Assembly (NCBI GenBank): GCA_030063045.1
Contig: JAQSEB010000205.1
Coordinates: forward strand, 186,001-250,000
Direction: 5' to 3'
DNA from: Pratylenchus scribneri
Taxonomy: Eukaryota > Nematoda > Chromadorea > Rhabditida > Pratylenchidae
Length of the DNA stretch: 64,000 bases
Shown: positions 43,619 through 61,120 of the stretch, piece after piece
How positions within the stretch are numbered: the stretch's first letter is position 1
Layout: every line of letters begins with the position of its first letter
Translations under genes and position numbers: made by a program
The notes under the pieces: model-generated
What the model saw: the letters and a program-made list of their open reading frames with translations, nothing else
What the model was told of the DNA's origin: nothing
Database searches by the model: none

Positions 43619-43821
43619 ATGACACAACAAAGGCGAAAGATGATGCTGAAAAGAAACATTTTAAAATTCGTGTGATGATAAATTCCATTTATTCGGCTGA
43701 ATATATCACTTTTGAGAACAAACATCACTGCCTATGCTCTTTTGATGGTCATTGAATTCCTTTGGGTTTTCAAATTCAAATTTAATGGTCATAATAAAAT
43801 CAGCCAGCAAATTAAATTGCC

Positions 43822-44166
43822 TGAGGAATGGCCGCCAGGCATCTCGCCATGTCTAACCTATTTTCCCCTTATCCCTATTCTTTTGTTATCTCTCCCCTTT
43901 TATCCCCCACTCTTGATCCAATCCCCCTTTTTATGCTTTATCCCCTTTCCGCCCCTTATCCACCAATTGTTAATCCCTTTATAAGCTAATCCCTTTTTCT
44001 CCTTTTCTTGAGCCATTCTCGCCTTCCCCTAATCCCCCTTCCTTCCGCCAATCCCGTCCGCCCAAACCCCCTGTTGTCCTTTTGCCATTTTTATTAATTT
44101 GGAATAAATATTATTTCATTCGTACATCTGGGGGCAGGGATCGGGTCAATTGGGGCGCAACCATCA
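43822..44166 (+). repeat. 5' LTR of the Gypsy-type element
   Basis: 345 bp, C-rich on the plus strand, with a CTTTATAAGC TATA-like box and GGAATAAATATT poly(A)-signal-like sequence near the 3' end. Matches 60771-61115. Confidence 0.95.
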
Positions 44167-44186
44167 TGGAGGTCTTACCCGGATCC
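44167..44186 (+). promoter_or_regulatory. Candidate tRNA primer-binding site
   Basis: TGGAGGTCTTACCCGGATCC starts at the first base after the LTR. TGG pairs with a tRNA CCA end and the rest would pair with an acceptor/T-arm. The tRNA species cannot be named without a tRNA set. Confidence 0.6.
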
Positions 44187-44612
44187 TCGTCGAGAGGCGG
44201 CGGATGGGAGGAACGATCAACGGTTGGAAGGGGGATTAAAAGACAACCAAAAATGGTCTCAAATACTAAAAATGTCAAAAATTAATAATATGAGGGAGAA
44301 AAATCGAACGAAAATTCCGGCCAAATATATAATAATGAATATACCCCAAATTCAAATAAACTCCCAAATAATTCAAAAAAGGACAATAATGAATACACAA
44401 TAAATAAAATTTCCTTTATGAAAATCGGCCAAAAATTAAATAAATTTCAATTGATTAAAAATACTGAAAAATATGAATTATTATTATCCAAAAATTGAAA
44501 ATGGCCATTCATTTTTTCCCTCTCAATTCTTTCCAATTCATCCATTCGGCCACAATGCCTACAAGGGAATCATGCAAATTCCAAATTGGTATAAAATAGA
44601 AACAAGATTAAC

Positions 44613-46716
44613 TCACTCCTCAACGCGGCGACCGCCCGGGGTGAGCCCAACATTTGCAACGCCAATTCCACCGCCTCCAGCCATCACATGCGGATTGCGG
44701 CCTGAATAATTATTGAATTATATTAAATATGATTAAAAATAAAAAATTATTACGGAAAAATGCCCGGACGGAATCACGGAATCGGCCAAATGGTGGATTG
44801 GCAAGAGCAGGCAAATTTTGACGGCGGCGGCGGCGGCAGACAAAAATGATGGCCAAAGAGGCCAAGATTCCCACGCCCAAGGCCCCCAAAACTGCCCACA
44901 CCGCGACGAAGAAAACAGTGGTCACGTCGAAAGTGACCCAGACATGGGGCAAGTTATTGGGATTGATGCCAGGAGGTGCGCAAATGCCGAGCTCGGGAAC
45001 ATCGTAACGGATGGATGTGTAACAGGCATTTGGAGGCAAACACGGCACACCAGCGCAGGTCACGTTCGAAAGAAATTCCCAAATCATTTCAAAGGGATTG
45101 AATGAAATTTATTAAAATTTTATTAAATTATGAGCTAAAATTATCATTGGAATAAATTAACGTTTGGAAAAAAATGCTCAAAAGACTAAACTTTCGGAAA
45201 ATGGTTGGAATGGAAAATACCAACCAACAGGGAACAAACATGAGTTTGGCCAAATTGAAAGTTGGAAATGAAGTGAAAATGGCCGCGAAATGAAATGAAT
45301 GGTCGATTTGCCCTTCGGGGACAGATCCAATGAGAAGGGGCAAATACAACCAGCCAAGTTGGCGCACGACGGGCATCGGAAATGTTGAGCCATCTAAAAA
45401 TAAAAAGGAAACACAAAGAATTTTTTCCTTTTAAACTTATCTAAAGTGAAGCAGCACAAAAAGGGGCAAATGCAACCAGCCAAATGGGCGCACGATGGGC
45501 ATCGAAAATGTTGAGTCATCTAAAAATATAAAAGGAGACACAAAGATTTTCCTTCCTTTTAAACTTATCTAATAGGAAAAGCAAAGCAAAAATGGGTCCC
45601 AGTGAGCAAAACTGAAAAATAGAGGGAAAGTAAAAAAATTGAAAATAAAATTATCTGTTTAAATTGCGCATTGTCCAGCCAATGGCATTGTTGGGGGACA
45701 TAAAGGGATCAAAGTCCAAATCGTACAAATCTGCAAAAGTTTTATTGGGATTAGCAGTGGAACAGTTGGTGGAAGTAAAGTTTGGAGGGCCCGACCAATG
45801 GATTTTGGCAAATTATAGACAATGTTAAAATGAGAGAAAATTATGTGGGGGCGTTCTTGTGCTGGCCAGCCAAAATTTTATATTCTTTTTGCCCCCACTA
45901 AAAAATTGAAAATAAAGCAATTAATCTTATTGTCTAAGCCGGCGCCGATCCTAAGAGTCGAAAGGCTATACCAATTGCTTTCTCCGATCATTCTTGCTAA
46001 AAGTCCTCAGAAAACTTACCAAAAACTTTGATCCAAAAAAATTGAGTATTGAAAATAATAAAAATCGTAAAACTTGCCTAATTTGTGCCTTGTTTGATTG
46101 GAATTGCCCAAGAATTGTGCAGCCATCAGCCAATTGAACCCATCGATCATTGCAACCGACAACTGTAATTTTAATTTTAATTAATAATTAGTCAAAAAAA
46201 AAGGGGATAATAATAAAAAAAAATAATAAATCTAGCTTTCAAGTAATTTTTCATTTTCCCGTCTCTTTTTCGCTGTTTTATTTTTTCATTCAAATTCCTC
46301 CTAATTCCCAAAAAATTTTCATTTTTCTCCTCCCCCTATTTTTTGTTGGCGGTGGTGATAAATCGGAAAATCAATTAAATCATTCTCCTCTTTGAAAAAA
46401 ATGGTGATTGTTTTAATTTTTGATTGAAAGTTCATTCTCCTCATTTTTGTGGTGATTGAATCCCAAAAATAGTAATAAAAAAAATATTATAAATCCGCTT
46501 TTGAGCTGGAATTTATCCCGAGAGACCCAAATCCAAACGAAAGCAGTGCCACCACCCGAAGAAATATTATTCCACTTTTTCGGCCGTGTAATTGCAATTG
46601 TCTCAACTCACCAAATATCTGCAATTGCCCGGAGGGGATACTTTGCTGCTGCGTTCCCGCCGATCCAAAGCCACCAAGAAAACGTCCATTTGGCCAATAT
46701 TGATCACATTGTCAAT
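44613..46716 (-). pseudogene. Antisense intron-containing gene fragment inside the retroelement
   Basis: Minus-strand exon-like blocks lie between the 5' LTR and gag. About 46708-46612 includes DQYWPNGRFLGGFGSAG, donor GTGAGT. 46162-46078 includes GCNDRWVQLADGCTILG, donor GCAAGT; these two join in phase 1. About 45825-45662 includes IHWSGPPNFTSTNCST and YDLDFDPFMSPNNAIGW. About 45380-45180 follows. About 45087-44750 carries the Cys pattern VTCAGVPCLPPNACY, then one membrane segment (VFFVAVWAVLGALGVGI...) and an RRRRR stop-transfer. 44701-44616 includes MAGGGGIGVANVGLTPGG. This reads as a single-pass receptor-like membrane protein. Clean acceptors are missing before some blocks, two blocks (45390-45460 and 45480-45535) are near duplicates, and the first exon is cut where gag begins. 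I infer a captured, partly decayed host gene; family not recognised. Confidence 0.55.
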
Positions 46717-46825
46717 TGAAAAATCATAATTTGATTAATAAATTTAAATTAAAATAAAATTATTGGATTAAACTACACTAAAATATCATATCCTTATTAA
46801 TTAAAAATAACCCCATTACAAATAA

Positions 46826-47443
46826 AAAGTGGAGAGAAAAGAAAGATTAGAAAAAAGAAATATTCGAAGAGAAGAATTATTAATTAAAAGGGAAATTGAA
46901 TCAATAAATAGAAACGAAAAAAGAAGAGAAAAAGAAAGGGAAAAAGTAACGAAATTAAAGGAATTAATAACCCCAGTAAGGAGAAGTATAGAAACAATGA
47001 ATATTAGCCAAAATGATGAAGAAAGGGATGAAAGAACAGAAGAGGAAGAAAGAAATGCAAGGGGCATGGCATTTTTGGCACAAAAAATTGAATTATTGGA
47101 ACGAAAATTAGCTGCGGCGCCAAAAGAAAAAAGGGTGGAAACGGTGCCAAAAAATTTGGCAGCACCGCGCTATGATGGCACAACGAATTTCTGGGAATAT
47201 TTGAAAAAGTTTAATATTTTCGCCACAGCCTCCGGCTGGGAAATTCCCGATTGTGCAAGAGCGCTCCCCGCACTTTTGGATGGCGACGCATTACAAATAT
47301 ATTTGAGCCTCCCAGATTTGGAAAAAAGTAATTGGAAAAATCTAACAGCAGCCATGGCAAAGCGAACAAGCCATGCAGATCCTAAGGGATTCGCGCGGCG
47401 ATGTTTGGCAAAAGCTAAGCTGCAAATAGGCGAAACTCACTGA
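46826..47443 (+). CDS. gag: Gag (matrix/capsid part) of the Gypsy-type element
   Basis: Open from 46826; the first in-frame ATG is at 46997, so translation may begin there or upstream after splicing. The N-terminal ~75 codons are very charged (Arg/Glu, coiled-coil-like). The capsid-like part includes APRYDGTTNFWEYLKKFNIF and ALLDGDALQIYLSL, the usual retrotransposon Gag fold signature. The frame stops at TGA 47441-47443 while the next frame, open from 47430, continues the capsid homology. So Gag is split by a +1 shift within 14 bases. In an element with identical LTRs this may be a recent mutation, an assembly error, or programmed. Confidence 0.8.
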   Translation, partial: KVERKERLEKRNIRREELLIKREIESINRNEKRREKEREKVTKLKELITPVRRSIETMNISQNDEERDERTEEEERNARGMAFLAQKIELLERKLAAAPKEKRVETVPKNLAAPRYDGTTNFWEYLKKFNIFATASGWEIPDCARALPALLDGDALQIYLSLPDLEKSNWKNLTAAMAKRTSHADPKGFARRCLAKAKLQIGETH

Positions 47444-50400
47444 ATTTGGCAACAAAATTCGTGGATGGGTGGAAGATTCGATGGGGGACGTTACAAAATA
47501 TACTAGTGAAGCGAGGGAAGAAACGGCCATAGAATATTTCATTCAAGGCCTCCCCACAGACATAAAAAGGAAACTATTTTTTATGGATAATCCAAAAACA
47601 TTAAATGCCGCAATTGAAATGGCGAAAAAAGTTTGGCAAATTAAAAAGGAATTGGAAGGCGAAAACATGATAGCGGCCATTGATATGGAGGAAATAAAGG
47701 CAGAAGTCAATGCCATCAGGGTTGAAATGGAAAATAAAAGGGAGGAAATTAAAAATAATGAGAGGAAAATGGAAATGGAAAATAAAAATTGGGAACAAAG
47801 AAATTGGCAAGAAAATAGGCAATTGAATTGGAGAGGAAATAATCAAGGAAATTTCCGTGGAAATGGGCAAAGATATGGTCAAAATAATTGGAGAGGTGGA
47901 CAAAATAACTGGGGAAATGGGCCTAACTGGAATAATAGAGGAAATTATAATAATAATAATCCAAATTTTGAGCCAATTAACAACAATTGGCGGTCAAATC
48001 GTCAATTTTATGGAAATAATCAAAGACAAAATTGGAATGGAAATAGAGCAAGAGCGCGTGGAAGAGGAAATTGGAGAGGCGGCGATCGCCAATATAAAGT
48101 GAATTTGATAAATGATGAAGGGCCAAGCAATGCTTCTGCCCCCAGACGTTCTCCCTCGCCATTTTTCCCATTACTCTTGATTTGTGCCATTTTGGCAACA
48201 CTTTTTAGCCTAACATCTGGGCAATACCAAATTTGTTCCGAAAATATGCCAACCCACCCAATTTCTTTGCCAAAAATGGAGGAATGTAAAATCGAAAAAA
48301 CTGAAAAAGCTGCTGAACGAAAAATTATGCTGTTTTTGCCTATTTCAAATCCAAAAAAATTCCCCATCTTTTCATGTTCCCGCAAAAAAATTAAAACATG
48401 CACACACGCAGTTTTGTGGTTTTGGAAGGAGGAAGACCCGATAAACGAAACACAATGGGAAGGTTTAGATCCACACGAATGTTGGGATTGGATAAAAAAT
48501 AAGGAAAAGAATATGAAAAAAATAGACGAATATCGATGGGAAAATGATGCACAAATTACAGTGGAATTTGCATGGGTTGGAGAAAAGTGTTCTGAAGGGG
48601 AAAAAAGGCAAATTGAGAAGGGTGAAGGTGGAATTTTGGGTTTCGAACTAATAACAACATGGGGAAATAATTTAAATCCTCATAAGAAGTTTGAAAAAAT
48701 GTTAACTCGAACAATAGTCTGGGAAATCCCAAGTGAAGAATTTTGGCACACACATTCGCCCATAGGCAAATACAATGCAGAAATTACAGAAAAAGCCATT
48801 ATTGTGGAAGAATTGGAAGCGGTGTTTGAATACGAAAAGGAGGATGACAGACAAGGGATTATGGGGGTTCCGGAAAAAGCAATTAAATTAATAAATGATG
48901 CTTTTGTTATCATTTTCGAGCCCAGTAAAAATCGAATAAAAAGAGAAAAAATTAGGCCAAGACTAAGGGTCCCAAAAGTAAAAGAACAGCCACCATTACG
49001 TAACCCAGGAACCACCCCAATTCCTCCCTCAACTACAACAACTCCAAAAATTATCCCCTCCAGTACCACTTTGCCTACAACTAAGCCAAGCACTACAGTT
49101 TTGACCCCAACTACTACAAAAATTCCTTTTATTACTAGTACCACTAAAAAACCTACAACTCAAACTATAAAAATGCCCACATCCACAAAAATGCCTATAA
49201 CTCTAACCCCAAAAATGGCCATCATTTCAACCATAAAAAAGCCTATAACCTTAACAACAAAAAAGCCAATAATTTTAACCACAAAAATGCCTACAACTAT
49301 AAAATTACCTACAACTCCAGTGACAAAAATGCCTATAACCCCGAGTATAAAGCCTATTACGTCCACAACTAAAATGCCTACCACTACAGTAGTTAAAGTA
49401 TTAAAAATAGAAAAAATACAAAAAGAAGAAAATGATAGTGGGGTTGAGATTTTAAGGCAAATGGAGACCAAAACAGTAATTGAATTAAAAAAGGAAGAAT
49501 ATGAAAAAATAAAGGAGGAAAATGCCAAATTTAAGGAATGGGTGGACAAAATAAATGAATTGAAAAGGGAACAAAAGGGATTGAAAGATAAAATTATTGA
49601 AATTGAACGTCAAAGACGGATGACAACTGTCAGCACTCCGGAGAGTGAAACATTGGGAAATGAATTGAGGAATGTATCTGGGAAATTTTTGGATGAAGTT
49701 TGGAGAGGAAATTTGGAAAAGGCAAAAGAAAGGCAAAATTTTGGGGCAGAAACAAAAAATACGAATACTCGCATAAACTATGCGCTTTATAAAATGTCGG
49801 AAGAAAGAAGGCATGATTTTGAGCAAATTCAGTTACATGCATGCGAAAATACAAAATTTCAGCTTCAAATGGCTGGAGCTGTTCTAAAAATAAATCCGAC
49901 AGAAGGTGTCAGAAAAATATTTGAGAGGGATGATATATTTGCAAAATGGTCCAATTTTGGCCTCGAAATTGGGTTTTGTACCCAAGTTTCTCCACAAAAG
50001 ATTTTCTGGAACAATAAAATAAACGAAATATGTTTTGAAAAAATGCCGGTTTTGGTTGAGAATAAAACATTGTTTGTGGAAATTTATAGCCGAAATTTAG
50101 TGGCCACAAGTAAAAAAATCGATTGTGATAAAATAAATGTAACCAATTCTCTAAATGCCACACAAAAGGAAGAAATTGAAATAATGCGTGAAAATTTTGA
50201 AAAATCATTATCACTGGAAAAATTAGAGGGATTGAAGAAAAGAAATCCTTTCTTTTTGAAAAAGGGAGCGATTTTTGAACCGGACACCAGCCGAATTGAA
50301 AATTCTTTGGCCGAATATAGAAAAAGGTTTAACACACTCCCTACTGGATTTTTTCGGCAAATGAAGGCACCAAGTGTGCCAGAAGCCGTTGAAATAATTT

Positions 50401-53400
50401 TGAAAGAGGTGAAAGATAAAGTAGAAGAAACAGGAACAATCATAAAAGAAATCCCAGAAAAAGCAAATGATTTTATAAATGATGGCATAACATGGTTAAA
50501 ATCAATGAAATGGCTTGGAATTACAATTTTAATTCTAATTATCATTGGAGGAATAATATTTTTATTGGTAAAAACACGAATTTATTGGATGGCCGGATGG
50601 CAAGTTGGACAAATGGCAGGCACAATTTTGCAGGGAATGTTCACTAGTCGTCGGCCAAATCAAAGAGAAATTCAAGTCGCAGCGGTTAAAACAGTTGATC
50701 CATTGGAAGAAGAAGCCTTCATAATCTCATATTTGCCTCCACGTGTTTACGCCATTGTGAATGACCCAGAAAAACTGGTGAAAATCAAAGGAAAAGTAAA
50801 TGGGTTTGAATTAGAAATCCTTTGCGATTCATGCGCAGCAGTCTCACTTTGCAGTGAAAGACTAGCAAAAAAGTTGGGATTGAAAATAAACACAGACAAA
50901 CAGCCACAATTGTGTGCTGGGAATAATTTGGGAATGAATACAATTGGATATACAAATGTCATACTTGGACTTGGAAATAAAGAATGGGAAATTTCACTGT
51001 TGGTGACAACCACAGCACATTCCCCCGGGGATGTATTATTGGGAACGCCAGTGTTGAATTCATTAAAAGGATGCCTCGATTGGGAAGAGAAAAAAGTAAA
51101 AATTGGTGGACAATGGACTCCTATGATTTTGGCAATTCAAGCCAACAAAAAGAAAATGAAAATAAAAATTCAGAATGATGAAATTCTGGAGCCAAGAACG
51201 GACACATTAATGTGGGGAAAAATTGAGGATGAACTGGAAGAAGGGCAAATTTATTTGGTGGAAGAATTGTCTAATAATTATGAGATGTTGAAAGTTGGAA
51301 AAACCATTTGCATTCCCGGAAAAGAAGGATTGGTTCCCCTTCGATTATTAAATATGGGCATTTCTCCATTAAAATTGTTTAAAAATTCATTTGTGGCACA
51401 ATTGGAAGAAATTGAAGAACAAAAACCTGGCGTTTTTGTTACAGAAATACAAAAAGAAAATGATTATTTACCCAAAGAGTTAGATTGGATGGAAAAAGTG
51501 CCAGGAGAAGAAAGGAAAAATGAAAAAACATTGGAAGAACAAATAAATTTAGAAGGTTGCACGTTAAGTGAGAATGGAAAGAAGGAATTGATCAACATTA
51601 TCAAAAAACATGAAAAAGTTTTTGGCGGAAAAGATAAAAGTTTAGGACTTTATAATGGACCTATTGTCCACAGAATTGATTTGGAAGCCGGTTGCGCACC
51701 GGTCAGACAAAAAGCATACAGAATTGCCCCTTCACAAAGGGAAGAAGTGGAAAAACAATTAAAATCGATGCTTGAGCAAGAAATTATAAGGCCTTCGGCT
51801 TCCGAATTTGCAAGCCCAATAGTGCTAGTGCCTAAAAAAGGCGGCACATGGCGGTTTGCTATCGATTATCGAGCCCTAAATAAGATTACACAGAAACAGG
51901 CATACCATCTGCCTAATATTACAGAATTATTGGACACTGTAGGAGCCAAAAAATTCTATACTACGGTGGATTTAGCCGCCGGGTATCATCAAATTCCCTT
52001 GCGCGAGGAAGACGTGAAAAAAACAGCGTTCATAACGCATTGCGGCCTCTTCGAATTTTTGAGGCTTCCGTTTGGATTAGCTTCGGCGCCATCCACATTT
52101 CAGCGCATTATGGAAAATATCAGAGGGGAAATGATGGAAAAATTGGCCAGGCACAGGGAAAAAATGACCGCATGCATGCTTTGCTATTTGGATGATATTA
52201 TATTAGGCTCAATCGAAGAAGGGGAACATTTGGAACAATTGGATGCAATGCTAGGAATTTTAGAAAAAACAGGATTGACACTAAAAATTGAAAAGTGCAC
52301 ATTTGCACAAAGTCAAATAAAATATTTAGGCTTCATATTGAGCCAAGAAGGTATACAAGCAGATCCTGCACAAACCGCAGTAATTCAGAAATTTGATAAG
52401 CCAAAAAACATCCACGAACTCCGCTCGCTCGTTGGGGCGCTATCGTACTTTAGAAGATATATCCCAAATTTTGGACAAATCGCGCACCCACTTACATCCT
52501 TAATGAAAAAAGAAACAGAGGAAAAGATTGAAGAATGTTGGGGAAAAGAAGAAGAGGAAGCATTGGAAATTTTAAAATTTTTAATGCAAACACCCCCGGT
52601 ATTGAAAAGCCCAAATTTTAAAGAGCCATTTGAAATAGAAACTGATGCCAGTAACTCAGCAATTGCTGCTGTTTTGCTACAAAATAAACACCCAATTATA
52701 TATAGTTCGCGATGCTTAAATAAACACGAAAAAAATTGGCACGTTAATGAGAAGGAAGCATTAGCTATCATATTTGCAGTGAAGGAGTATGAACCGTACA
52801 TATTGTCGGCTCCTCAAACTACGGTTTGGACAGATAATATAGCTTTATGTGCCATGTCAAGGCAAAAAGGCCTAAAAGGCCGACTGTTGAAATACCAAAT
52901 GGCAATTCAAAGTTTTAGAATTGAAGTGAAGCACAGATCCGGTAAAAGCAACCGGTTAGCGGACTATATGTCACGCTATTTAAATTGGAAACAAGAAAAT
53001 AAAAATGAGGAAGAAATAATTAAAATTGAAGCAATAAATGCGAATAGCGAAATGATGAAAATAATGAATGACCAAAAAATAAATATAACATTGGAAAAAA
53101 TTGCAGATGAACAAAAGAAAGTTAAAGAATTAGCTGATTTATTTAGAGCAATAAAATGGAAAAAATTTCCAGATGATGAACAATATAAAAAGAAATTAAA
53201 AGAGAAAATGAAAGAACACATAATAATTGATGGGGCAATTTTTCATAAAAATGAGGAAGGAATGACCCGATTATTAATTCCGTTTGGATTGAGAGAAAAA
53301 ATATTGGAGGAAATGCATTCAAACCCAATGCAAGGAGGACATATGGGTTGGGAAAAAACATTTGAAAAATTAAAGAAAAGATTTATTTGGGATGGCATGA

Positions 53401-55193
53401 AGGAAGACACTAAAAATTATGTGAAAAGTTGTGAAATTTGCCAATTTAGAAAAATTGAAAGTGGCGATAAAAAAGCGCTCCCAACAAAACCAATTCAAGC
53501 CTCAAACAGGCCGTGGCAACGCTTACACATGGATATTTTAGGGCCACTACCCATAACTTCAAAAAATAATCGATACATATTAATGACTATCGATTCTTTC
53601 TCAAAATGGACACATGGAATTCCCATGAAAAAACAGAATGCTCCAACAATTTGCGATGCGTTTATTAAAGAAGTGATGTTACAAAAAGGGGTGCCAGAAA
53701 TTATTGTTACGGATCAGGGACGCCAATTTATAGGCGAAATTTTTCAAGAAATGTCAAAAATATTTGGATTCAAACATGATGTTAGTATGCCGTATCATCA
53801 ATCGGCAAATGGACAAATAGAAAGACTGAATGGCATAATTGCCACAATAATCGCAGGAAATGATGGAAAATATGAATGGGATATTGCGCTTCCCTTTGCA
53901 CTTTTTGCATATAATTGCTCAGTAAATTCGAGCACAAATGAAACACCGTTTTTCGCTATGCATTTGAGAGAGGCATTAATGCCTACGGATTTGTTGACAC
54001 ACAAAATTGGAAATGGAATTAATGGAGACCTAACTTGGTACTCCGAAGAAATGATAAAAGTTGCGGAAAAAACATGGTCAATCATGAAAGATAACATTGA
54101 AAAAGCGCAAAATAAATATAAACAAGATAATGACAAAAGTAGGAGGGCAGAAGAAAGGGAATTTTCAATTGGAGAATTAATATTGGTTCAAAAAGAAAGA
54201 AATATTGAAAAATTTGGGAAAAGATGGAATGGACCTTTCTTGGTTGTTGGTATTGAGAAAGAGAAGGACAATTTAATTCTAAAATCGGTTGATGGAAGAG
54301 AAAGATTGGAAAAAGTAAGCATGCAAAAATGTAAAAAATACAAAAAGGCAGCAATGTTGCCAATGAGGCCTTCTGATGCCTTGAAGGAAAAATATTTTTT
54401 GATGGACCCGAATACTGAAGAAGAGGCGGATGAGGAAGAAGGAAGAAAGGAAAAAGAAAAGAAAATATATATGGACAAAAATATTGAGGAATCGGATTCA
54501 GAATCCGAAAAGGAAACTCAAAAACAAGAAGGTCTTGAAGACCAAATGCCAAAAATATTCATGATTACAATGAAAAATAATAAAAAATCGGAATCGAAAG
54601 AGTTAGAAATGAAAATGAATGACCTCTCATTAAAAGAGGAAAAAATTGAAAGGCCCCTTGAGGTTACAACTTCAGCAAAAAAATTTAATATAATATGGAG
54701 AGGGGCAAAAGTTGCTGCAAATTGGTATCCAAATAAATCAAAACCATTTATTGAATGCCCAACGGCATTAATGAGAGGCTCTAAATTAGCCAAAAAAGAG
54801 GAATTCTATTGCCGGATTAAAAAACCGTGGGAAGGATGGTCAAATATATTGAAAGTGAAAACAAATGACAATTTGAACAATATATGCTTCGGATCAGAAG
54901 CAAAGAAGGAAATTGATAAAATGAATTGCGCATTGAGATGGTGTGGGAAAGGAAAAGGAAAAGAAGGACATAAATTTCAATTTTGCTATAAGGGAAATGG
55001 AAAATACACAATGTTAACATGCATAACAGATGGGTTGCCAGAAAATTTTGAAGAATCGGGAAGCGAATACAAAAAGCTAAAAATTAAGAGAAAACCGGAT
55101 TTGGACGGAATAGAAAGAAATAAATTTTGCAAAATTAATTGGAATGGAAAAAGCCAGGAAAGGGATATGGTTCCCGGAAGAAGATTGTGTTGA
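47430..55193 (+). CDS. pol: Gag tail, env-like, protease, RT, RNase H and integrase polyprotein
   Basis: One open frame of ~2580 codons (residues counted from 47469). 1-75: end of capsid. ~124-228: Asn/Gly/Arg-rich RGG nucleocapsid without CCHC knuckle. ~231-255: hydrophobic signal-like segment. ~256-510: cysteine ectodomain. ~513-644: Thr/Pro stalk with KMP repeats. ~658-717: coiled coil. ~790-900: second Cys region. ~1015-1038: membrane anchor. ~1095-1190: protease, with DSC where DSG/DTG is expected, then DVLLGTPV. ~1410-1640: RT with YLDD. ~1715-1840: RNase H (TDAS, KEALA, TDN, RLADYMSR). ~1950-2150: integrase with HHCC finger and D-D-35-E (MDILGP, VTDQG, NGQIERLNG). ~2240: GPF module. 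~2405-2500: first copy of a Trp-rich module. The second copy is broken at the end by a frame change into the next ORF. Integrase and RT look intact; the protease motif is odd. Confidence 0.93.
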   Translation, partial: AKLTEFGNKIRGWVEDSMGDVTKYTSEAREETAIEYFIQGLPTDIKRKLFFMDNPKTLNAAIEMAKKVWQIKKELEGENMIAAIDMEEIKAEVNAIRVEMENKREEIKNNERKMEMENKNWEQRNWQENRQLNWRGNNQGNFRGNGQRYGQNNWRGGQNNWGNGPNWNNRGNYNNNNPNFEPINNNWRSNRQFYGNNQRQNWNGNRARARGRGNWRGGDRQYKVNLINDEGPSNASAPRRSPSPFFPLLLICAILATLFSLTSGQYQICSENMPTHPISLPKMEECKIEKTEKAAERKIMLFLPISNPKKFPIFSCSRKKIKTCTHAVLWFWKEEDPINETQWEGLDPHECWDWIKNKEKNMKKIDEYRWENDAQITVEFAWVGEKCSEGEKRQIEKGEGGILGFELITTWGNNLNPHKKFEKMLTRTIVWEIPSEEFWHTHSPIGKYNAEITEKAIIVEELEAVFEYEKEDDRQGIMGVPEKAIKLINDAFVIIFEPSKNRIKREKIRPRLRVPKVKEQPPLRNPGTTPIPPSTTTTPKIIPSSTTLPTTKPSTTVLTPTTTKIPFITSTTKKPTTQTIKMPTSTKMPITLTPKMAIISTIKKPITLTTKKPIILTTKMPTTIKLPTTPVTKMPITPSIKPITSTTKMPTTTVVKVLKIEKIQKEENDSGVEILRQMETKTVIELKKEEYEKIKEENAKFKEWVDKINELKREQKGLKDKIIEIERQRRMTTVSTPESETLGNELRNVSGKFLDEVWRGNLEKAKERQNFGAETKNTNTRINYALYKMSEERRHDFEQIQLHACENTKFQLQMAGAVLKINPTEGVRKIFERDDIFAKWSNFGLEIGFCTQVSPQKIFWNNKINEICFEKMPVLVENKTLFVEIYSRNLVATSKKIDCDKINVTNSLNATQKEEIEIMRENFEKSLSLEKLEGLKKRNPFFLKKGAIFEPDTSRIENSLAEYRKRFNTLPTGFFRQMKAPSVPEAVEIILKEVKDKVEETGTIIKEIPEKANDFINDGITWLKSMKWLGITILILIIIGGIIFLLVKTRIYWMAGWQVGQMAGTILQGMFTSRRPNQREIQVAAVKTVDPLEEEAFIISYLPPRVYAIVNDPEKLVKIKGKVNGFELEILCDSCAAVSLCSERLAKKLGLKINTDKQPQLCAGNNLGMNTIGYTNVILGLGNKEWEISLLVTTTAHSPGDVLLGTPVLNSLKGCLDWEEKKVKIGGQWTPMILAIQANKKKMKIKIQNDEILEPRTDTLMWGKIEDELEEGQIYLVEELSNNYEMLKVGKTICIPGKEGLVPLRLLNMGISPLKLFKNSFVAQLEEIEEQKPGVFVTEIQKENDYLPKELDWMEKVPGEERKNEKTLEEQINLEGCTLSENGKKELINIIKKHEKVFGGKDKSLGLYNGPIVHRIDLEAGCAPVRQKAYRIAPSQREEVEKQLKSMLEQEIIRPSASEFASPIVLVPKKGGTWRFAIDYRALNKITQKQAYHLPNITELLDTVGAKKFYTTVDLAAGYHQIPLREEDVKKTAFITHCGLFEFLRLPFGLASAPSTFQRIMENIRGEMMEKLARHREKMTACMLCYLDDIILGSIEEGEHLEQLDAMLGILEKTGLTLKIEKCTFAQSQIKYLGFILSQEGIQADPAQTAVIQKFDKPKNIHELRSLVGALSYFRRYIPNFGQIAHPLTSLMKKETEEKIEECWGKEEEEALEILKFLMQTPPVLKSPNFKEPFEIETDASNSAIAAVLLQNKHPIIYSSRCLNKHEKNWHVNEKEALAIIFAVKEYEPYILSAPQTTVWTDNIALCAMSRQKGLKGRLLKYQMAIQSFRIEVKHRSGKSNRLADYMSRYLNWKQENKNEEEIIKIEAINANSEMMKIMNDQKINITLEKIADEQKKVKELADLFRAIKWKKFPDDEQYKKKLKEKMKEHIIIDGAIFHKNEEGMTRLLIPFGLREKILEEMHSNPMQGGHMGWEKTFEKLKKRFIWDGMKEDTKNYVKSCEICQFRKIESGDKKALPTKPIQASNRPWQRLHMDILGPLPITSKNNRYILMTIDSFSKWTHGIPMKKQNAPTICDAFIKEVMLQKGVPEIIVTDQGRQFIGEIFQEMSKIFGFKHDVSMPYHQSANGQIERLNGIIATIIAGNDGKYEWDIALPFALFAYNCSVNSSTNETPFFAMHLREALMPTDLLTHKIGNGINGDLTWYSEEMIKVAEKTWSIMKDNIEKAQNKYKQDNDKSRRAEEREFSIGELILVQKERNIEKFGKRWNGPFLVVGIEKEKDNLILKSVDGRERLEKVSMQKCKKYKKAAMLPMRPSDALKEKYFLMDPNTEEEADEEEGRKEKEKKIYMDKNIEESDSESEKETQKQEGLEDQMPKIFMITMKNNKKSESKELEMKMNDLSLKEEKIERPLEVTTSAKKFNIIWRGAKVAANWYPNKSKPFIECPTALMRGSKLAKKEEFYCRIKKPWEGWSNILKVKTNDNLNNICFGSEAKKEIDKMNCALRWCGKGKGKEGHKFQFCYKGNGKYTMLTCITDGLPENFEESGSEYKKLKIKRKPDLDGIERNKFCKINWNGKSQERDMVPGRRLC
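48160..50595 (+). other. Envelope-glycoprotein-like segment within the polyprotein
   Basis: Seen: a hydrophobic leader (PLLLICAILATLFSLTSG), two cysteine-bearing ectodomain regions, N-glycosylation-type sites, a Thr/Pro mucin-like stalk, a coiled coil, and a C-terminal membrane anchor (ITILILIIIGGIIFLLV) before a short Trp/Arg tail. Known: the ordering of Cys residues around ISLPKMEEC and the later C...K...C-x-x-x-P-V...C pattern resembles glycoproteins of chuvirus (Jingchuvirales) type that arthropod and nematode LTR elements have acquired. Inference: an acquired membrane glycoprotein. Its place upstream of protease rather than after integrase is unusual. Homology is by pattern only. Confidence 0.6.
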
Positions 55194-56850
55194 AATTGGA
55201 TGGCCAGAAAATTTATCACACGGATTAAAAATAGAAAATGCAAGAGTAAAAAATAAATGCTGGATCATTCATCCAGATGGACGATATTCGCAACCATTGA
55301 ATGCCACAATGGGCAATTTTAATAGAATATGGTTTGGCACGAAAGCCACCAAAGAGATTGGAAAATTGAACATTCATTTTGAAAATGGACTGGATAAAAT
55401 TAAAAAATTTTGGAATAAAGAAAAAGAAGCATTTACAACATTGGAAATTGTCTTTAAAAATCCCAGTGAAAATAGGGATAAATTAAACAAAAATGCGAAA
55501 AAGAAAAACGAAAATTCGTTGACTTTGAAAAGGCCATTGGAATTAGTGAAGGTGAAAATTTGTTGGCTGGACCAAAATATATCAGCTTTTTGGAAGCCAG
55601 TTGATGGAATTGAAGAATGCCCATTAAAATTAATAGACATTACTAAAACCAAATTGGAAGGTTATGAATTTGAACAATTATATGCATGGATAATAATTCG
55701 AAATCCAAATAATATGAAAATGTCCTATCCAATACGATTTGTGGTCAAGGATACTGAAACTTTGAAAATTGTAGACAAATCAATAAAGGAATTGAGTAAA
55801 TTGGGATTGAATGAAAGGGATGGAAGATTTTGGTGGAAAAAGAATAAAATATGCACAAATCCTGAATTTTTATATTTGACTCAATCGATGATGCCCAAAA
55901 CGAGCAAAATCGGATGGAAAAATAAAATATGGGATGCTGAATGGGACATTGATCAGTCAGAAAATATTTTTATTCCCGCTGAAAATAATGAAGAAGAGAG
56001 GGAGTTTCCAATAAAAATTACAAATGAAATTGAGGATTTGTCGTGGTCGCGGGAACTGACAGCCAAAATGACCAGTACAGTTCGAAAAATAAAATTGGGC
56101 ATAAAGGCTTTCACGACCTTGATTGGATCAAAAATAAGACTAAATATGGATAATGGAGAATGGGAATATTATAGGCGAATGAAAAAAGAATTTATCCCAA
56201 CAATAAGGGAAATTAAAAGAAAAACAAATGCCGAAAGTGACATTGAAAGCTTGAGTGAATCACTCGAAAGTGAAGGAAAGGTGAAAAACAGAATGAGAAT
56301 GATCATTGAAGGTGTTGAACGATGGGGATTTACCCCAGGAATGAAAGTGTCATTGGATGACGTTACAACTATTCCTATTAATTGGTTAGATGGAAGCTGG
56401 AAAGTCCACAAAGATAAAAAGTTCTCATGTTACGGCATGGAGCTGGACAGTTATGTGCGCGCGGTTGATGCATCATTTTTTGAGGGAAAAGAGTGGCCTA
56501 ATTTTGAAAGATTTTACTTGGCTAAAACCGCTGAGATGCAAATCAGTTTTTGGTGGCTGGAAACATTCGGCACTTTTTATAAATGGACGCGGAGAAATGA
56601 AAAAGAGGATATGCTAATAAGCTGCGTGGAAATTAATGGAGAAAAGATTGAAGATGTACAATATATTCCAGAAATAAAAATTGAAAAATGGAACGAAAAT
56701 TGGGAAGAACCTAAGGAAGAGATGAGGGAAGATGATGAAGAAGAGGATGATTTTGAGAATTTAAATTTGCCAAAAACCAACCAAATAGCCATCCATATCC
56801 CCATCGATCAACCAGGGCCATCCAAGCAATGCAAGGGCGCAAGCCAATGA
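55144..56850 (+). CDS. Second retroelement ORF: iterated Trp-rich modules
   Basis: 568 codons from ATG 55144, overlapping the pol frame by 50 bases in the +1 frame. The start of this ORF completes a module begun in the pol frame (KFCKINWNG upstream, then GIWFPEEDCVEIGWPENL here), so the two ORFs were probably one, with a 1-base shift near an AAAAA run at 55147-55153. A further copy follows at ~55545-55800 (KVKICWLDQ, FWKPVDGIEECPLKL). Weaker ones may lie at ~55900 and ~56350 (INWLDGSWK). The shared pattern is an I-x-W start, a W-[YFK]-P turn, then a C-P or W-P with an 80-residue body. The tail is acidic. No known domain recognised. It may be an accessory or structural protein. Confidence 0.75.
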   Translation: MEKARKGIWFPEEDCVEIGWPENLSHGLKIENARVKNKCWIIHPDGRYSQPLNATMGNFNRIWFGTKATKEIGKLNIHFENGLDKIKKFWNKEKEAFTTLEIVFKNPSENRDKLNKNAKKKNENSLTLKRPLELVKVKICWLDQNISAFWKPVDGIEECPLKLIDITKTKLEGYEFEQLYAWIIIRNPNNMKMSYPIRFVVKDTETLKIVDKSIKELSKLGLNERDGRFWWKKNKICTNPEFLYLTQSMMPKTSKIGWKNKIWDAEWDIDQSENIFIPAENNEEEREFPIKITNEIEDLSWSRELTAKMTSTVRKIKLGIKAFTTLIGSKIRLNMDNGEWEYYRRMKKEFIPTIREIKRKTNAESDIESLSESLESEGKVKNRMRMIIEGVERWGFTPGMKVSLDDVTTIPINWLDGSWKVHKDKKFSCYGMELDSYVRAVDASFFEGKEWPNFERFYLAKTAEMQISFWWLETFGTFYKWTRRNEKEDMLISCVEINGEKIEDVQYIPEIKIEKWNENWEEPKEEMREDDEEEDDFENLNLPKTNQIAIHIPIDQPGPSKQCKGASQ

Positions 56851-57111
56851 ACCGGCACAAGCAATGAACTAGAATTAAAATAATTAGTTAATAATTGTAT
56901 ATTAATTTCTTTCAATTTTTAATGTTGTTCTCAAAATTCTTTATAAAAAATTGTACCACCACTTATTTTTATCTATTTATTCTTTTGTTTGGTTGTTTTG
57001 GATAAATTTGAATTAATCTAATTAATATCCGAAAAATTAATTTCCATTTAATAATAATATCGATTTATTTGAAAAATATTAATAATTAATATCCAATCAG
57101 AATTGCAGAAG

Positions 57112-59112
57112 ATGGATAATGAAGTTTGGCTTCTGGATCCTGGTGAAGATGAATTAGACTATGATGAGGAAGTGGAAGAGGAGAAACAACAAAATAATTC
57201 GAATATTAGAAAGGAAAGACAAAAGGAAGAAAGCGAGAAAGAAGAAAGCGAAATTGAGGAAAAAGAAACGGATATACATGGAAATGAATGGAAGCCAGAA
57301 GGAAGATGGATTCCCAAAAATATTGCCGAAAAGAAGAGAATTCCAAAAAGGAAACATTGGGAAGATAATGAAAGCATGGAACGGAAAAGCTTTTTAAATA
57401 AGCCAGAACAAAAAAGGCAAAAATTAACACTTGATGAATGGTTGAGAAGCGATCAAGAATTACAAATAAATAATTTGCCTTGGCTATCAAATGCCGAATT
57501 GATTGGTCTGGGGAAAAGCGGAAATAACATGAAGATAATGAAAAAGGAAAAAAGCGCTGGAAACATATTGTTCCTGCGAGCAACTTATGCATTGGTGAAA
57601 AAGCATGCGTTGAGAATGGCAGAAAATGAGGATGAAAACAAAAAAGAGGAAAGGGAAGAAAAAGAAAGAAAGAATGATCCGATCAACGAATTGAATCCTA
57701 AATTGGACAGGAATAAGAAAAGATTGTTTGAAGAGGAAAAAGAAGGAGCCTTGAGAATGATGAAGAGAAGCATCGGAAGCATTGATAAAAACAATCAGAA
57801 AGAAACAGAAAAATTTGAGATGGGAAGAAAACAAAGAGATGTGCAAGCATTGATGCAAAAGTCGATGGAAGAAAAGGAAAAAAGTGGGAAGGAAATTGAA
57901 AAAGAAATTGAAGAAAGCAGACGAATAATGCACAGGAAACGTTTGGATAATATGGAGAAAAAGCGAAACAATTTATTAGCCCAATTGGAAATTGAAAATG
58001 AAAGAAATTGGGGGAACAAAAAGGAATATAATAGTGGAGGACGATTTGTGAAAGGAAGAAACGATGTAAGAAGAAGAGATGAAAATCGGAATTGGAGACA
58101 GAATGAAAATAGAAATGGAATCAAAACAGAAAGCATAGTAGACGAAAAAGAGAAGGAACACATAGAAAAAGATGAAGAAGAAAAGAAGGAAGAGAAGAAT
58201 ATGAATTCAACAAGCAAATTGCTTGGGGAAAAGCCCGAGGGCACGAATAAACAATTGAATAATTCCTGCAGCATTGCAGAAGAATTGAAGAAATTAGAGG
58301 AAATAATTAAAGAAAGAAATGATGAAAACGGGAAGAAAGAAGAAAATAAAAAGAAGAAAGATGAAGAAAAAATATTAAAAGGAAATAAAAATGGATCAGA
58401 AAGAGAAAGCCTTGATGAAAGATTGAGGAAGCTGAAAGAGAGAATTGAATTAAGCAGTGGTGCAGGACAAACAGTTCAAAGTCGGTATGATTACCACCGC
58501 TCACCGACTCCACCCAGCCCGGAAATCATTCCATTGGAGGAAGAGCCGACAATTAACATTGATTATATTTGTAATTGCCCCGTGTTGGCTGATGAAATTC
58601 TTGACCGATCAGGAACAAATGTGCCGAAAGTTTTCGATGAAATTAGGGGGAGGCCCATTCCGTCCATTTTCCATGCTTTATGTTTGGACTATCAAGTGCG
58701 GCATCATCACATCAATAAATGGACACCCTCTTATTTTATTGAACTACCAGACATTGTAATCACATTGGATGCTTTCACCCAATGGGTGCAGAGCCGTAGC
58801 CCGAAACAATTGTGGAAGGAAGAAAAGATGGAAAAAATATTGAGAAGCTGGATGGGATGTGCACACAAAAAAAGCGCCATTTTAGGCGAAAGAAGATTGA
58901 CATTGAGTTGGCCTGAGTCAGCACAACTTAAGCAATGGTTAATACCATTACAAAACAGAATGGAGATAACAATTGAACGAATTCAATTGGAAGAAAAAAT
59001 GAAAGAAAAAGCAAAAGAAGCGGTTTGGAAGAAAGAAGCGGAAGAAAATGGAAGAAAGCGAAGAGAAGCAGAAGCGGAGATTAGGAAGCAGAAGGAAGAA
59101 AGACACCAGTGA
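57112..59112 (+). CDS. Third retroelement ORF: highly charged protein
   Basis: Starts at ATG 57112, 666 codons. Splice-acceptor-like CCAATCAG and TTGCAG lie just upstream (57093-57108), fitting expression from a spliced subgenomic RNA. The N-terminus is acidic (DELDYDEEVEEE), followed by a weak Trp motif (LDEWLRSDQEL...LPWLS). The middle ~300 residues are long charged coiled coil with an RN-rich basic patch (~310-345). The C-terminal ~170 residues are a compact-looking domain: PTINIDYICNCPVLADEIL, YQVRHHHINKWTPSYF, FTQWVQSRSP, SWMGCAHKKSAILG. It ends in another coiled coil. No recognised family. The gene lies before the 3' LTR where env or accessory genes sit in other elements. Confidence 0.8.
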   Translation: MDNEVWLLDPGEDELDYDEEVEEEKQQNNSNIRKERQKEESEKEESEIEEKETDIHGNEWKPEGRWIPKNIAEKKRIPKRKHWEDNESMERKSFLNKPEQKRQKLTLDEWLRSDQELQINNLPWLSNAELIGLGKSGNNMKIMKKEKSAGNILFLRATYALVKKHALRMAENEDENKKEEREEKERKNDPINELNPKLDRNKKRLFEEEKEGALRMMKRSIGSIDKNNQKETEKFEMGRKQRDVQALMQKSMEEKEKSGKEIEKEIEESRRIMHRKRLDNMEKKRNNLLAQLEIENERNWGNKKEYNSGGRFVKGRNDVRRRDENRNWRQNENRNGIKTESIVDEKEKEHIEKDEEEKKEEKNMNSTSKLLGEKPEGTNKQLNNSCSIAEELKKLEEIIKERNDENGKKEENKKKKDEEKILKGNKNGSERESLDERLRKLKERIELSSGAGQTVQSRYDYHRSPTPPSPEIIPLEEEPTINIDYICNCPVLADEILDRSGTNVPKVFDEIRGRPIPSIFHALCLDYQVRHHHINKWTPSYFIELPDIVITLDAFTQWVQSRSPKQLWKEEKMEKILRSWMGCAHKKSAILGERRLTLSWPESAQLKQWLIPLQNRMEITIERIQLEEKMKEKAKEAVWKKEAEENGRKRREAEAEIRKQKEERHQ

Positions 59113-60770
59113 TGATGAAGAAAGAAGAGAAGAGGATGATGGAAGATGAGAAAATTTGATTGATTTTTTTTTAGGTCCTATTATTAAATATTTTCCCTTA
59201 CCTATCATTTAATTACCTATTTTCTAAATAATCCCCCCTCACATTTATCTAAACCCTTATTCTTTTGTTTTATCTTTTATTTGTAATCAATAAACACCAA
59301 CCGTTTGAACAAATTTGAATGCGGCACACAACAAGGCCTTGCCCATCCAAAAACAGTCGACCAAATTGATCACAAACCACTGACGCCAATTGACCCTGAA
59401 TATAAAATTGAATAAATCAACTGGCCAAATAAACCTCACATCCATATTTGACCGTCCGCCACCATCCCGACCATGTTGAGTACAAAATTGTTGAAACATT
59501 CCTTAGCCCACATCCAATCAATACTAATTCAAATCAACCAAAGAATGAATTAGCAAGACCGGATGCGAACCTAAGAAATAAACATTATTGGTTTAACCAC
59601 ATAAAATTATTATCTGTTTGATTCGGCCGGGTTGGCACTTGGCACACATCACAAGCCATGGCCATTAAGTTCAGTTGAATTGTTAATGGAAATAAATTTA
59701 ATTAAAAATGATTAAACAAAACAAAAACCTCAATTAAACAAGCTAGAACATTCACCAAAACATTGATGGCATCAACCAATGACCAACATTGGCAATCATT
59801 GCTCAAACATTGCACCAATGTGCTGAAAAATAAAAAACTAAATTCATTTAACCAAAAAATTATTTTTATCTCGTTTGCATCCCGTCCAATTCGCCAAAAT
59901 ATTGATCGCATCAGCCATTCGCCATTGGCATGTTTTGGCCCATCACACACAAAACACAATTTATTGTTGAATAAAATTGTAATAAACATTGCTGAAAAAC
60001 AAAAATAGGAAACGTAAAAATCAAATGCGGAATAAAACGGGAAATATTGCTAAACGGAATAATTATTGGAATGAATAAAAATGGCAACGGGTAAAAAAAT
60101 AGAAACGGCCGAGGGTGAAAAGTTGTGAATGAATGTGGGAAATGAAAATGCGAGCGGCGAATGTGTCCGAGCAAGGAAAAGGGACGCTTACCCAAGCAGT
60201 CCATCAACTATACCCAAGCCATCACCCAATACCCACGCATCACACACATAAAAGTTGACCTTGTCAATTGATGATGGGAATTGAACGCGAGCAACTATGG
60301 AAAGCTATGGAAAAATGGGCAATCATTGCCGAAAAATGAATAATGAAGAATTGGCCGATTTCCCGAACCATTATACGAAATTATCAAAAAGACTAAACAC
60401 TTTTCATTTTACCGGAATATGGAGGGAAAAAATTGGAAAAATTCGGGAATGGATTTTGGAAATTAATTGGATTTGGAACATTGGTGGAATGCGATTGAAT
60501 AAAATGGGAAAATATTGCATTGGAAAAGTGGGTGCGGAAAGCTGAACTAAATTGCCAGGAAGGGGAATAAAAATTGGACTAATTTGGAATTGTGAAAACG
60601 CGGAGCAAATATTTGGAAAGAGCAGAGTTGAAGAAAGAATGAATGTGAATGAAGGTTGGCGATGGAAATGGACAGCAATGGACGCTGATGGGCATTAATG
60701 GAATGCCCATCTTCCATCAAATCAATAAAGAAGGCTGCGGCCGTGGACGGCCTTGTCGGATGGGAGAGCA
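59113..60770 (-). other. 3' non-coding tail of the retroelement with antisense exon-like blocks
   Basis: No plus-strand gene. On the minus strand, about 59525-59455 encodes WMWAKECFNNFVLNMVGMVA with a GTGAGG donor. After a TATTCAG acceptor, 59395-59287 encodes VNWRQWFVINLVDCFWMGK and ends with a stop. Similar Trp-led words occur at ~59820-59760 (WSLVDAINVLV) and ~60240-60190 (WVLGDGLGIVDGLLG). They resemble one another and could be a decayed repeat protein or chance in CCAAT-rich sequence. Support is weak. Confidence 0.35.
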
Positions 60771-61115
60771 TGAGGAATGGCCGCCAGGCATCTCGCCATG
60801 TCTAACCTATTTTCCCCTTATCCCTATTCTTTTGTTATCTCTCCCCTTTTATCCCCCACTCTTGATCCAATCCCCCTTTTTATGCTTTATCCCCTTTCCG
60901 CCCCTTATCCACCAATTGTTAATCCCTTTATAAGCTAATCCCTTTTTCTCCTTTTCTTGAGCCATTCTCGCCTTCCCCTAATCCCCCTTCCTTCCGCCAA
61001 TCCCGTCCGCCCAAACCCCCTGTTGTCCTTTTGCCATTTTTATTAATTTGGAATAAATATTATTTCATTCGTACATCTGGGGGCAGGGATCGGGTCAATT
61101 GGGGCGCAACCATCA
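60771..61115 (+). repeat. 3' LTR of the Gypsy-type element
   Basis: 345-bp copy of 43822-44166, preceded by purine-rich GGATGGGAGAGCA, followed by the TTGCC duplication. Confidence 0.95.
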
Positions 61116-61120
61116 TTGCC

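Follow-up and report, generated by a model that had tools for sequence, protein, structure and literature searches.

The window analysed here is a 64,000-nucleotide stretch of the genome of the nematode Pratylenchus scribneri (GenBank assembly GCA_030063045.1, contig JAQSEB010000205.1, positions 186,001 to 250,000, forward strand), and it contains a complete long terminal repeat (LTR) retroelement of 17,294 bp (43822-61115) whose envelope-like gene (env) lies between gag and the protease of pol. Coordinates are those of the window, and the genes and LTRs are all on its forward strand. The two LTRs (43822-44166 and 60771-61115) are exact 345-bp direct repeats (100% identity) with TG..CA ends, and they are bordered by the same 5 bp (43817-43821 and 61116-61120), i.e., by a target-site duplication; these boundaries were placed by eye at TG..CA. 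Such ends are those of an LTR retrotransposon or provirus, and the identity of the LTRs suggests that the element is young and was inserted recently. The first-pass annotation of this DNA had singled out the frame 47430-55193; the frame is real, and the element that holds it extends further on both sides, from 43822 to 61115.

According to the list of open reading frames, this stop-to-stop frame spans 2587 amino acids and encodes, in order, the tail of Gag, a signal peptide, an ectodomain, a transmembrane anchor, protease (PR), reverse transcriptase (RT), RNase H, and integrase. Pfam searches with pieces of the window returned the same succession, namely, Monjiviricetes_fusion (E-value 1.2e-8), aspartyl protease (3.6e-6, slightly below the curated cut-off), RVT_1 (7e-35), RNase H (8.7e-28), H2C2 (2.5e-20), and rve (7.1e-16), with a weak Retrotrans_gag match (0.0023, below the cut-off) immediately upstream of the env piece. 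The proposed order of Gag, envelope-like glycoprotein, and protease in one frame is borne out by these matches and by the relatives described below. The frame had also been proposed to open with the end of the capsid, which it does; in this copy, the capsid is split, its first part lying in frame +2 (46826-47443, the weak Retrotrans_gag match) and running on in frame +3 at 47430, where the capsid end and an Arg/Gly/Asn-rich nucleocapsid occupy 47430-48119, as judged from the sequence and the relatives. Within pol, Pfam places PR at 50784-51059 (active-site triplet DSC, from a triplet scan), RT at 51828-52340 (YLDD), RNase H at 52539-52916, and integrase, with its H2C2 zinc domain and rve core, at 53280-53798; a Trp-rich tail follows (54333-55193). 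The PR-RT-RNase H-integrase order with Ty3-type domains is that of the Metaviridae (Ty3/gypsy), and DUF1758, DUF1759, and Peptidase_A17, which mark a BEL/Pao locus of the same genome (L039), gave no match in the window pieces at E-values up to 1. By its domains, the element is a Ty3/gypsy-type, envelope-bearing retroelement.

The hydropathy profile of the frame shows two strong segments, located where env borders on gag and on PR, respectively. The former corresponds to a predicted internal signal peptide (approximate limits 48150-48221, from hydropathy and alignment, with a putative cleavage point), after which the ectodomain starts at a conserved (Q)YQIC. The N-terminal ectodomain (48222-48932), delimited by alignment, carries six cysteines and is followed by a furin-type site, RIKR, at a conserved position (48933-48944), a Thr/Pro-rich mucin-like stalk (48981-49500), a charged helix-like stretch, and a second basic site, RQRR (49608-49619). 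The predicted class III fusion glycoprotein domain, with four cysteines (49761-50138), is the part matched by the Pfam family PF24664; it precedes the transmembrane anchor (50514-50570, mean hydropathy 3.16) and VAAV, a motif that resembles a protease cleavage site between the anchor and PR (50676-50687). The signal-like segment, Cys-containing ectodomain, Thr/Pro stalk, and anchor that had been read from the letters beforehand were thus all recovered by hydropathy, alignment, and pattern scans.

The same gene order was sought in other elements of the 227-Mb assembly, in which the window lies within contig C205. This assembly is marked as that of a nematode by 141 matches to the cuticle collagen family of nematodes, a family that had no match in 14 control genomes. 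A search with the window env piece yielded 93 matches at 54 loci, which were compared with 88 scored RTs out of 222 candidates, the list used for all locus counts; since this list is partial, a locus with no RT listed does not necessarily lack one. A listed RT is located 1.1-1.8 kb downstream of env on the same strand at 47 of the 54 loci and upstream within 4 kb at none, and seven loci have no listed RT within 4 kb. Twenty relatives (L009-L028, with Env identities from 94 to 22%; L009 and L002 are one locus) were compared with the window element, giving 21 members that are referred to here as the A1 group. In the relatives, matches to gag (19, not L020), both env halves (20), PR (16), RT and RNase H (20), and integrase (20, some partial where the stretch compared ends) follow one another in the same order, and all relatives except L014 have Env in frame with RT. 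This conservation excludes chance, and the gag-env-pol order is a lineage trait, an established design that is shared by dozens of elements. An env located 3' of pol, as in retroviruses or errantiviruses, was not found in the window, where env lies between gag and PR. The scenario set out in advance as the one that would overturn the proposal, namely Ty3 relatives with env at the 3' end and a rearranged element in the window, fails on the absence of any listed RT within 4 kb upstream of env at the 54 loci.

The layout of the Env segment is conserved as well. At least one hydrophobic segment is present at each env border in all 21 members, with extra segments shortly past the anchor in L014, L015, and L022, and elsewhere in pol in L010, L023, and L025-L027. 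The ectodomain begins with (Q)YQIC or a close variant across the members, and the 21-member alignment contains nine invariant cysteines and a tenth that is nearly so. In 18 of the 21 (all except L018, L021, and L023), the furin pattern R-x-[KR]-R is found at a distance of 232-255 residues from the ectodomain start, and both Arg columns of the site are at least 90% identical. The second basic site after the stalk occurs in nine members, which form one clade that includes the window element. Around the signal peptide, the Gag flank has a higher net charge than the ectodomain flank in 20 of 21 members (one tie), and around the anchor the Pol flank exceeds the ectodomain flank in 17 (three ties); by the positive-inside rule, these flanking charges would place Gag and Pol in the cytosol.

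Env has been kept under selection and has descended together with pol. The ratio of nonsynonymous to synonymous substitution rates (dN/dS) was calculated between the window element and three open close copies (L002, L003, and L005; L004, which has stops, was left out), and it amounts to 0.07-0.13 for the N-terminal ectodomain, 0.10-0.13 for the C-terminal ectodomain, 0.08-0.16 for the anchor plus tail, 0.09-0.18 for PR, and 0.35-0.43 for the stalk. The ectodomain values are as low as those of PR, and a frame held open merely for the sake of pol would not constrain the ectodomain so tightly. The signal peptide weighs somewhat on the other side: its dN/dS values of 0, 0.32, and 0.61 come from two to three changes per pair in 22 codons, numbers too small for a judgement. 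Distances between members in Env and in RT are strongly correlated (Mantel r 0.96 and 0.94, n = 21), and the main clades of the Env and RT trees are the same; the simplest reading of this agreement is a single capture of Env followed by co-descent within the A1 group.

With respect to the class of glycoprotein, PF24664 matches all 21 env members at E-values up to 0.01 (best 8.1e-15), and the profile of herpesvirus glycoprotein B (gB) matches seven of them (best 9.8e-9). Ten members scanned singly all match PF24664 between profile positions 281 and 467 of 653. When a profile of the 21 Env sequences was compared with the PDB, gB chains made up 19 of the 33 rows listed, all at the same place, with weak E-values from 0.046. 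The class III profile similarity is therefore present throughout, though some members fall under curated cut-offs, and the earlier suggestion of a chuvirus-like, class III glycoprotein holds at the level of sequence; Env looks like a class III protein of the chuvirus/gB kind, the Pfam family being named for the Monjiviricetes as a whole. Several observations count against this assignment. The PF24664 match of the window Env covers about 125 residues and scores 33.8 bits (cut-off 27), L014 scores 16.5 and falls short of the curated threshold, and all four gB matches obtained with the ten singly scanned members are under the family cut-off of 43 bits. The three best PDB rows for the 21-member profile are unrelated proteins, and no viral fusogen was found when the single window Env was compared with PDB sequences. 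Structure models from single sequences are of low confidence (predicted local distance difference test scores, pLDDT, of 35.7 and 34.3). Searches of a protein database that is perhaps poor in nematodes gave no homologue at an E-value of 1e-3 among the best approximately 8000 candidates, nor at an E-value of 1 among 1372 candidates. A comparison of Env with IMG/VR likewise found no relative, and no Pfam match of its own was found for the N-terminal half of Env. An arenavirus nucleocapsid profile match in one A1 member (4.5e-5) was taken as spurious. The class III fold and the fusion activity of Env are accordingly predictions from sequence.

To see how far the arrangement reaches, eight of the 40 RTs initially without env were inspected (L029-L036). 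In L031, whose RT is approximately 35% identical, gag, a signal peptide, a furin-type site, an anchor, and protease occur in the same order, and L035 and L036 share this layout; their env matches to PF24664 (4.6e-5 in L031, 9.9e-6 in L035) and, for L031, to gB (0.01) are below the cut-offs. Comparison of the A1 and L031 env profiles aligns them over the N-terminal ectodomain (E-value 7.9e-12), which is homologous in both groups, and over the fusion region (1.4e-6). A genome search with the L031 env gave 85 matches at 75 loci, and relative to 40 of the 88 RTs, 12 loci have an RT downstream, none upstream, and 63 have none listed. That a second Ty3 group has this order points to an insertion that is old or took place twice. 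By neither env search was an env found for 28 of the 88 RTs, of which five were inspected (L029, L030, L032, L033, and L034). L030 proved to have an A1-type env (profile E-value 8.9e-196). L029 has, between gag and protease, a signal peptide and an anchor on either side of a short Cys-containing ectodomain in which no fusion domain can be recognised; L034 has a single anchor-like segment; and none was seen in the longest frames of L032 and L033. Thus, env-less or env-reduced relatives exist. As a separate observation, the env-like part of L029 (541-1500) is followed by two profile-supported protease stretches with more than one DTG/DSC-like motif.

Two of the 63 L031-env loci with no listed RT were inspected, namely L037 (with L039, G000:C41) and L038. 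L037 and L039 belong to a BEL/Pao element with env at its 3' end, and in L038 a BEL/Pao-type integrase is followed by a signal-like segment, a furin-type site, and a hydrophobic segment; the Pfam fusion domain is weak in L037 (0.0061, below the cut-off) and gave no match in L038. These BEL/Pao-like elements share with the window element a related envelope, a signal-like segment, a furin-type site, and a frame in common with pol, whereas their env stands after integrase, on the usual side, and that of the window element before protease. Between integrase and the 3' class III-like env of L039/L037 (L039:2-7000 and L037:1-3996), there are also a NADAR domain (9.4e-35) and a Cid1/MTPAP-type nucleotidyltransferase (1.4e-17), which by their profile matches are captured host-type enzymes within the frame of a retroelement. 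The long frame of L039/L037 is 3,697 amino acids, and ten rows of the L031-env search have exactly that frame length.

The remaining parts of the window element are less readily interpreted. The 5' LTR abuts a sequence that resembles a primer-binding site and starts with TGG (44167-44182), read from the sequence. The leader (44167-46825) is 2.7 kb, which is long for an LTR element; the possibility that it is host DNA unique to this insertion was ruled out, as most of it recurs, in blocks of 88-92% identity, in the leader of the copy L009. Downstream of the long frame are ORF3 (55114-56850, 578 amino acids), weakly similar to the integrase tail, and ORF4 (57073-59112, 679 amino acids), which is charged and, according to the genome search, also present near other copies; neither has a Pfam match at E-values up to 1. 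The likeness of ORF3 to the integrase tail consists of a weak Trp-rich repeat (33% identity over 72 amino acids, E-value 4.5e-4). Elsewhere in the genome, at G000:C19 and G000:C255, inverted LTR-like matches flank env-bearing copies, perhaps nested or rearranged ones.

The reading favoured here, with a probability of about 0.68, is that a Ty3-type element into which a class III env was inserted ancestrally, between gag and protease, makes one Gag-Env-Pol polyprotein that is subsequently cleaved. The insertion would have taken place in the common ancestor and would have been kept in frame during diversification. Gag would be synthesised in the cytosol until the internal signal peptide opens the channel of the endoplasmic reticulum (ER) and the ectodomain passes into the lumen; the anchor would then halt transfer, leaving protease, RT, RNase H, and integrase on the cytosolic side. 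The first-pass annotation had seen a topology problem in enzymes encoded downstream of a membrane anchor, and a signal peptide before the ectodomain combined with a stop-transfer anchor after it would resolve this by leaving both Gag and Pol in the cytosol. Signal peptidase may free Gag, furin may split the ectodomain into subunits, perhaps with a further cut at the second basic site that would shorten the stalk in the clade of the window element, and the element's own protease may cut at the [IV]xA[IV] motif between the anchor and PR, so that Gag and Pol would be attached to the patch of membrane that carries Env. A putative site of the latter kind, [IV][NATSV][AL][VIA], occurs 41-66 residues past the anchor core in 18 of the 21 members (not in L011, L012, and L016), compared with 2.1 expected from shuffles, and before the signal peptide in seven, compared with 0.2 expected. 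Two points tell against this part of the scheme: the motif pattern was picked after inspection of the sequences, and the 21 rows share kinship; and the protease triplet, DSC in the window, is DTC, DPC, DPG, or DSG in relatives, with no clear triplet from the pattern scan in L013, L014, L015, and L021, which leaves the activity of PR uncertain. Such triplet variation (window 50784-51059, relatives L009-L028) is unusual for a retropepsin.

The polyprotein route is favoured because the frame is open on both sides of env, for at least 80 amino acids ahead of the signal core in all 21 members and at least 250 amino acids beyond the anchor in 20 of them, and because in eight members, the window element included, the 100 residues ahead of the signal core contain no Met. 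Another eight of the 21 speak the other way, since a Met is present in the 30 residues that precede their signal core and separate initiation is possible in these; a start codon ahead of env is not conserved across the 21 members in a simple scan. Ribosome skipping of the 2A type was rejected, the N[PA]GP motif not being found in the 21 frames. Env could alternatively be encoded in frame and yet be made separately, with alternative or trans-splicing producing an Env mRNA, an env-less Gag-Pol mRNA, or both. Spliced mRNAs are used by retroviruses and for CERV of the nematode element Cer1 (PMC10309623), and in nine of the 21 members the 300 nt that precede the signal core contain TTTYAG acceptor-like sites. 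These sites share positions among close relatives alone, no position is common to all, and the window element and 11 others have none before the signal peptide; past the anchor, a simple scan of 330 nt found no acceptor in any of the 21 members, though such simple patterns may miss weak sites, and one donor-like site, in L023 (donors were scanned near the two borders only). Splicing alone would not require the long open frames on either side of env either, and this explanation is considered unlikely.

It is less probable still that the central segment is a membrane glycoprotein other than a fusogen, e.g., a module that targets Gag-Pol to membranes or a receptor decoy with class III-like sequence. 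The N-terminal half of Env with no Pfam match of its own would fit such a role, as would L029, which keeps the signal peptide, short ectodomain, and anchor and indicates that the membrane module can persist after loss of the fusion domain. Against it stand the fusion-profile region and invariant cysteines retained by the 21 A1 members, the furin site retained by 18 of them, and the low ectodomain dN/dS. The window copy itself gives some ground for suspecting that its Env was moved or captured by chance through local rearrangement or an assembly artefact, since its gag capsid switches frame around 47430-47443 and another frame change or overlap is found at 55114-55193, both of which also weigh against an intact polyprotein in this copy. 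These breaks are either mutations or assembly errors, and single frames of 3,128 to 3,590 residues occur in some other copies and relatives. With a listed RT downstream of env at 47 of 54 loci and upstream within 4 kb at none, congruent Env and RT trees, identical LTRs, and a perfect target-site duplication, rearrangement or artefact is refuted by the survey of relatives and retains a negligible probability.

The element thus has an unusual genome plan that is real and conserved, whereas its mechanism is proposed from sequence. Retroviral Env is separated from Gag and Pol by splicing because of its ER destination, and the gag-pol-env order has, to our knowledge, been treated as constant for retroviruses and env-bearing LTR elements. 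A long-lived lineage with Env inside the Gag-Pol frame suggests that separation of Env is unnecessary. More tentatively, with odds slightly short of even, a radiation of nematode Ty3 elements comprising at least two groups may use an old, ER-threaded Gag-Env-Pol polyprotein in which Env links Gag and Pol structurally. If so, capsid and enzymes would be brought to the same membrane by the element's own entry glycoprotein, with no need for frameshift, readthrough, or splicing, an assembly plan that we do not know from retroviruses. The elements would also be recent enough, given identical LTRs and purifying selection on Env, to be, or lately to have been, infectious viruses of nematodes. How the amounts of Gag, Env, and Pol are set, and how they are sorted and packaged from one chain, becomes a testable question, with concrete cleavage predictions at the furin site, around the stalk between the two basic sites, and at the protease-type motif. 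Since related 3' envelopes are present in BEL/Pao-like elements of the same genome, both plans can be compared within one host.

Among known systems, errantiviruses (the gypsy group) and vertebrate retroviruses combine a Ty3-related pol with a fusogenic envelope; their fusogens are of classes other than class III-like, and their env is located 3' of pol and expressed via a spliced mRNA, whereas that of the window element lies between gag and protease. The proposed working of the element resembles that of the flavivirus polyprotein, with its cytosolic capsid, internal signal peptide, lumenal ectodomain, stop-transfer anchor, cytosolic enzymes, and mixed host and viral cleavages; flaviviruses are RNA viruses that do not integrate, and the likeness is an analogy for which no homology is claimed. 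A literature search by title and abstract opening found no LTR element described with env lying between gag and pol, with most subscription papers and bioRxiv outside its scope, so that it is not proof of novelty. What appears to be new here is the Gag-Env-Pol order, env-bearing LTR elements being known already. Retroviruses are described as having env 3' of pol and Env made via a spliced mRNA, and the C-terminal half of CERV, the extra gene of Cer1, as lying 3' of pol (PMC10309623); Troyka is described as having no envelope (PMC12440569), and some fly elements as encoding a small transmembrane protein upstream of gag (PMC11952523). Anakin, a BEL/Pao element of mosquitoes, is an LTR retrotransposon with a captured chuvirus-type glycoprotein, as is predicted for the window element, and differs from it in pol type and in its arthropod hosts (PMC7642597); the BEL/Pao pol expected of an Anakin member was not found in the window element, whose pol is Ty3-type and whose host is a nematode. 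A close counterpart is Atlas virus of hookworm with the nematode belpaoviruses, which are likewise LTR elements of nematodes that have identical LTRs, have captured a fusogen from a virus (as is predicted for the window element), and encode Env as part of a single polyprotein frame lacking introns (PMC9094657). Atlas virus belongs to the Belpaoviridae and encodes a single Gag-Pol-Env polyprotein with a class II, phlebovirus-like Env at its C-terminus, whereas the window element combines a Ty3-type pol, the Gag-Env-Pol order, and a class III-like Env.

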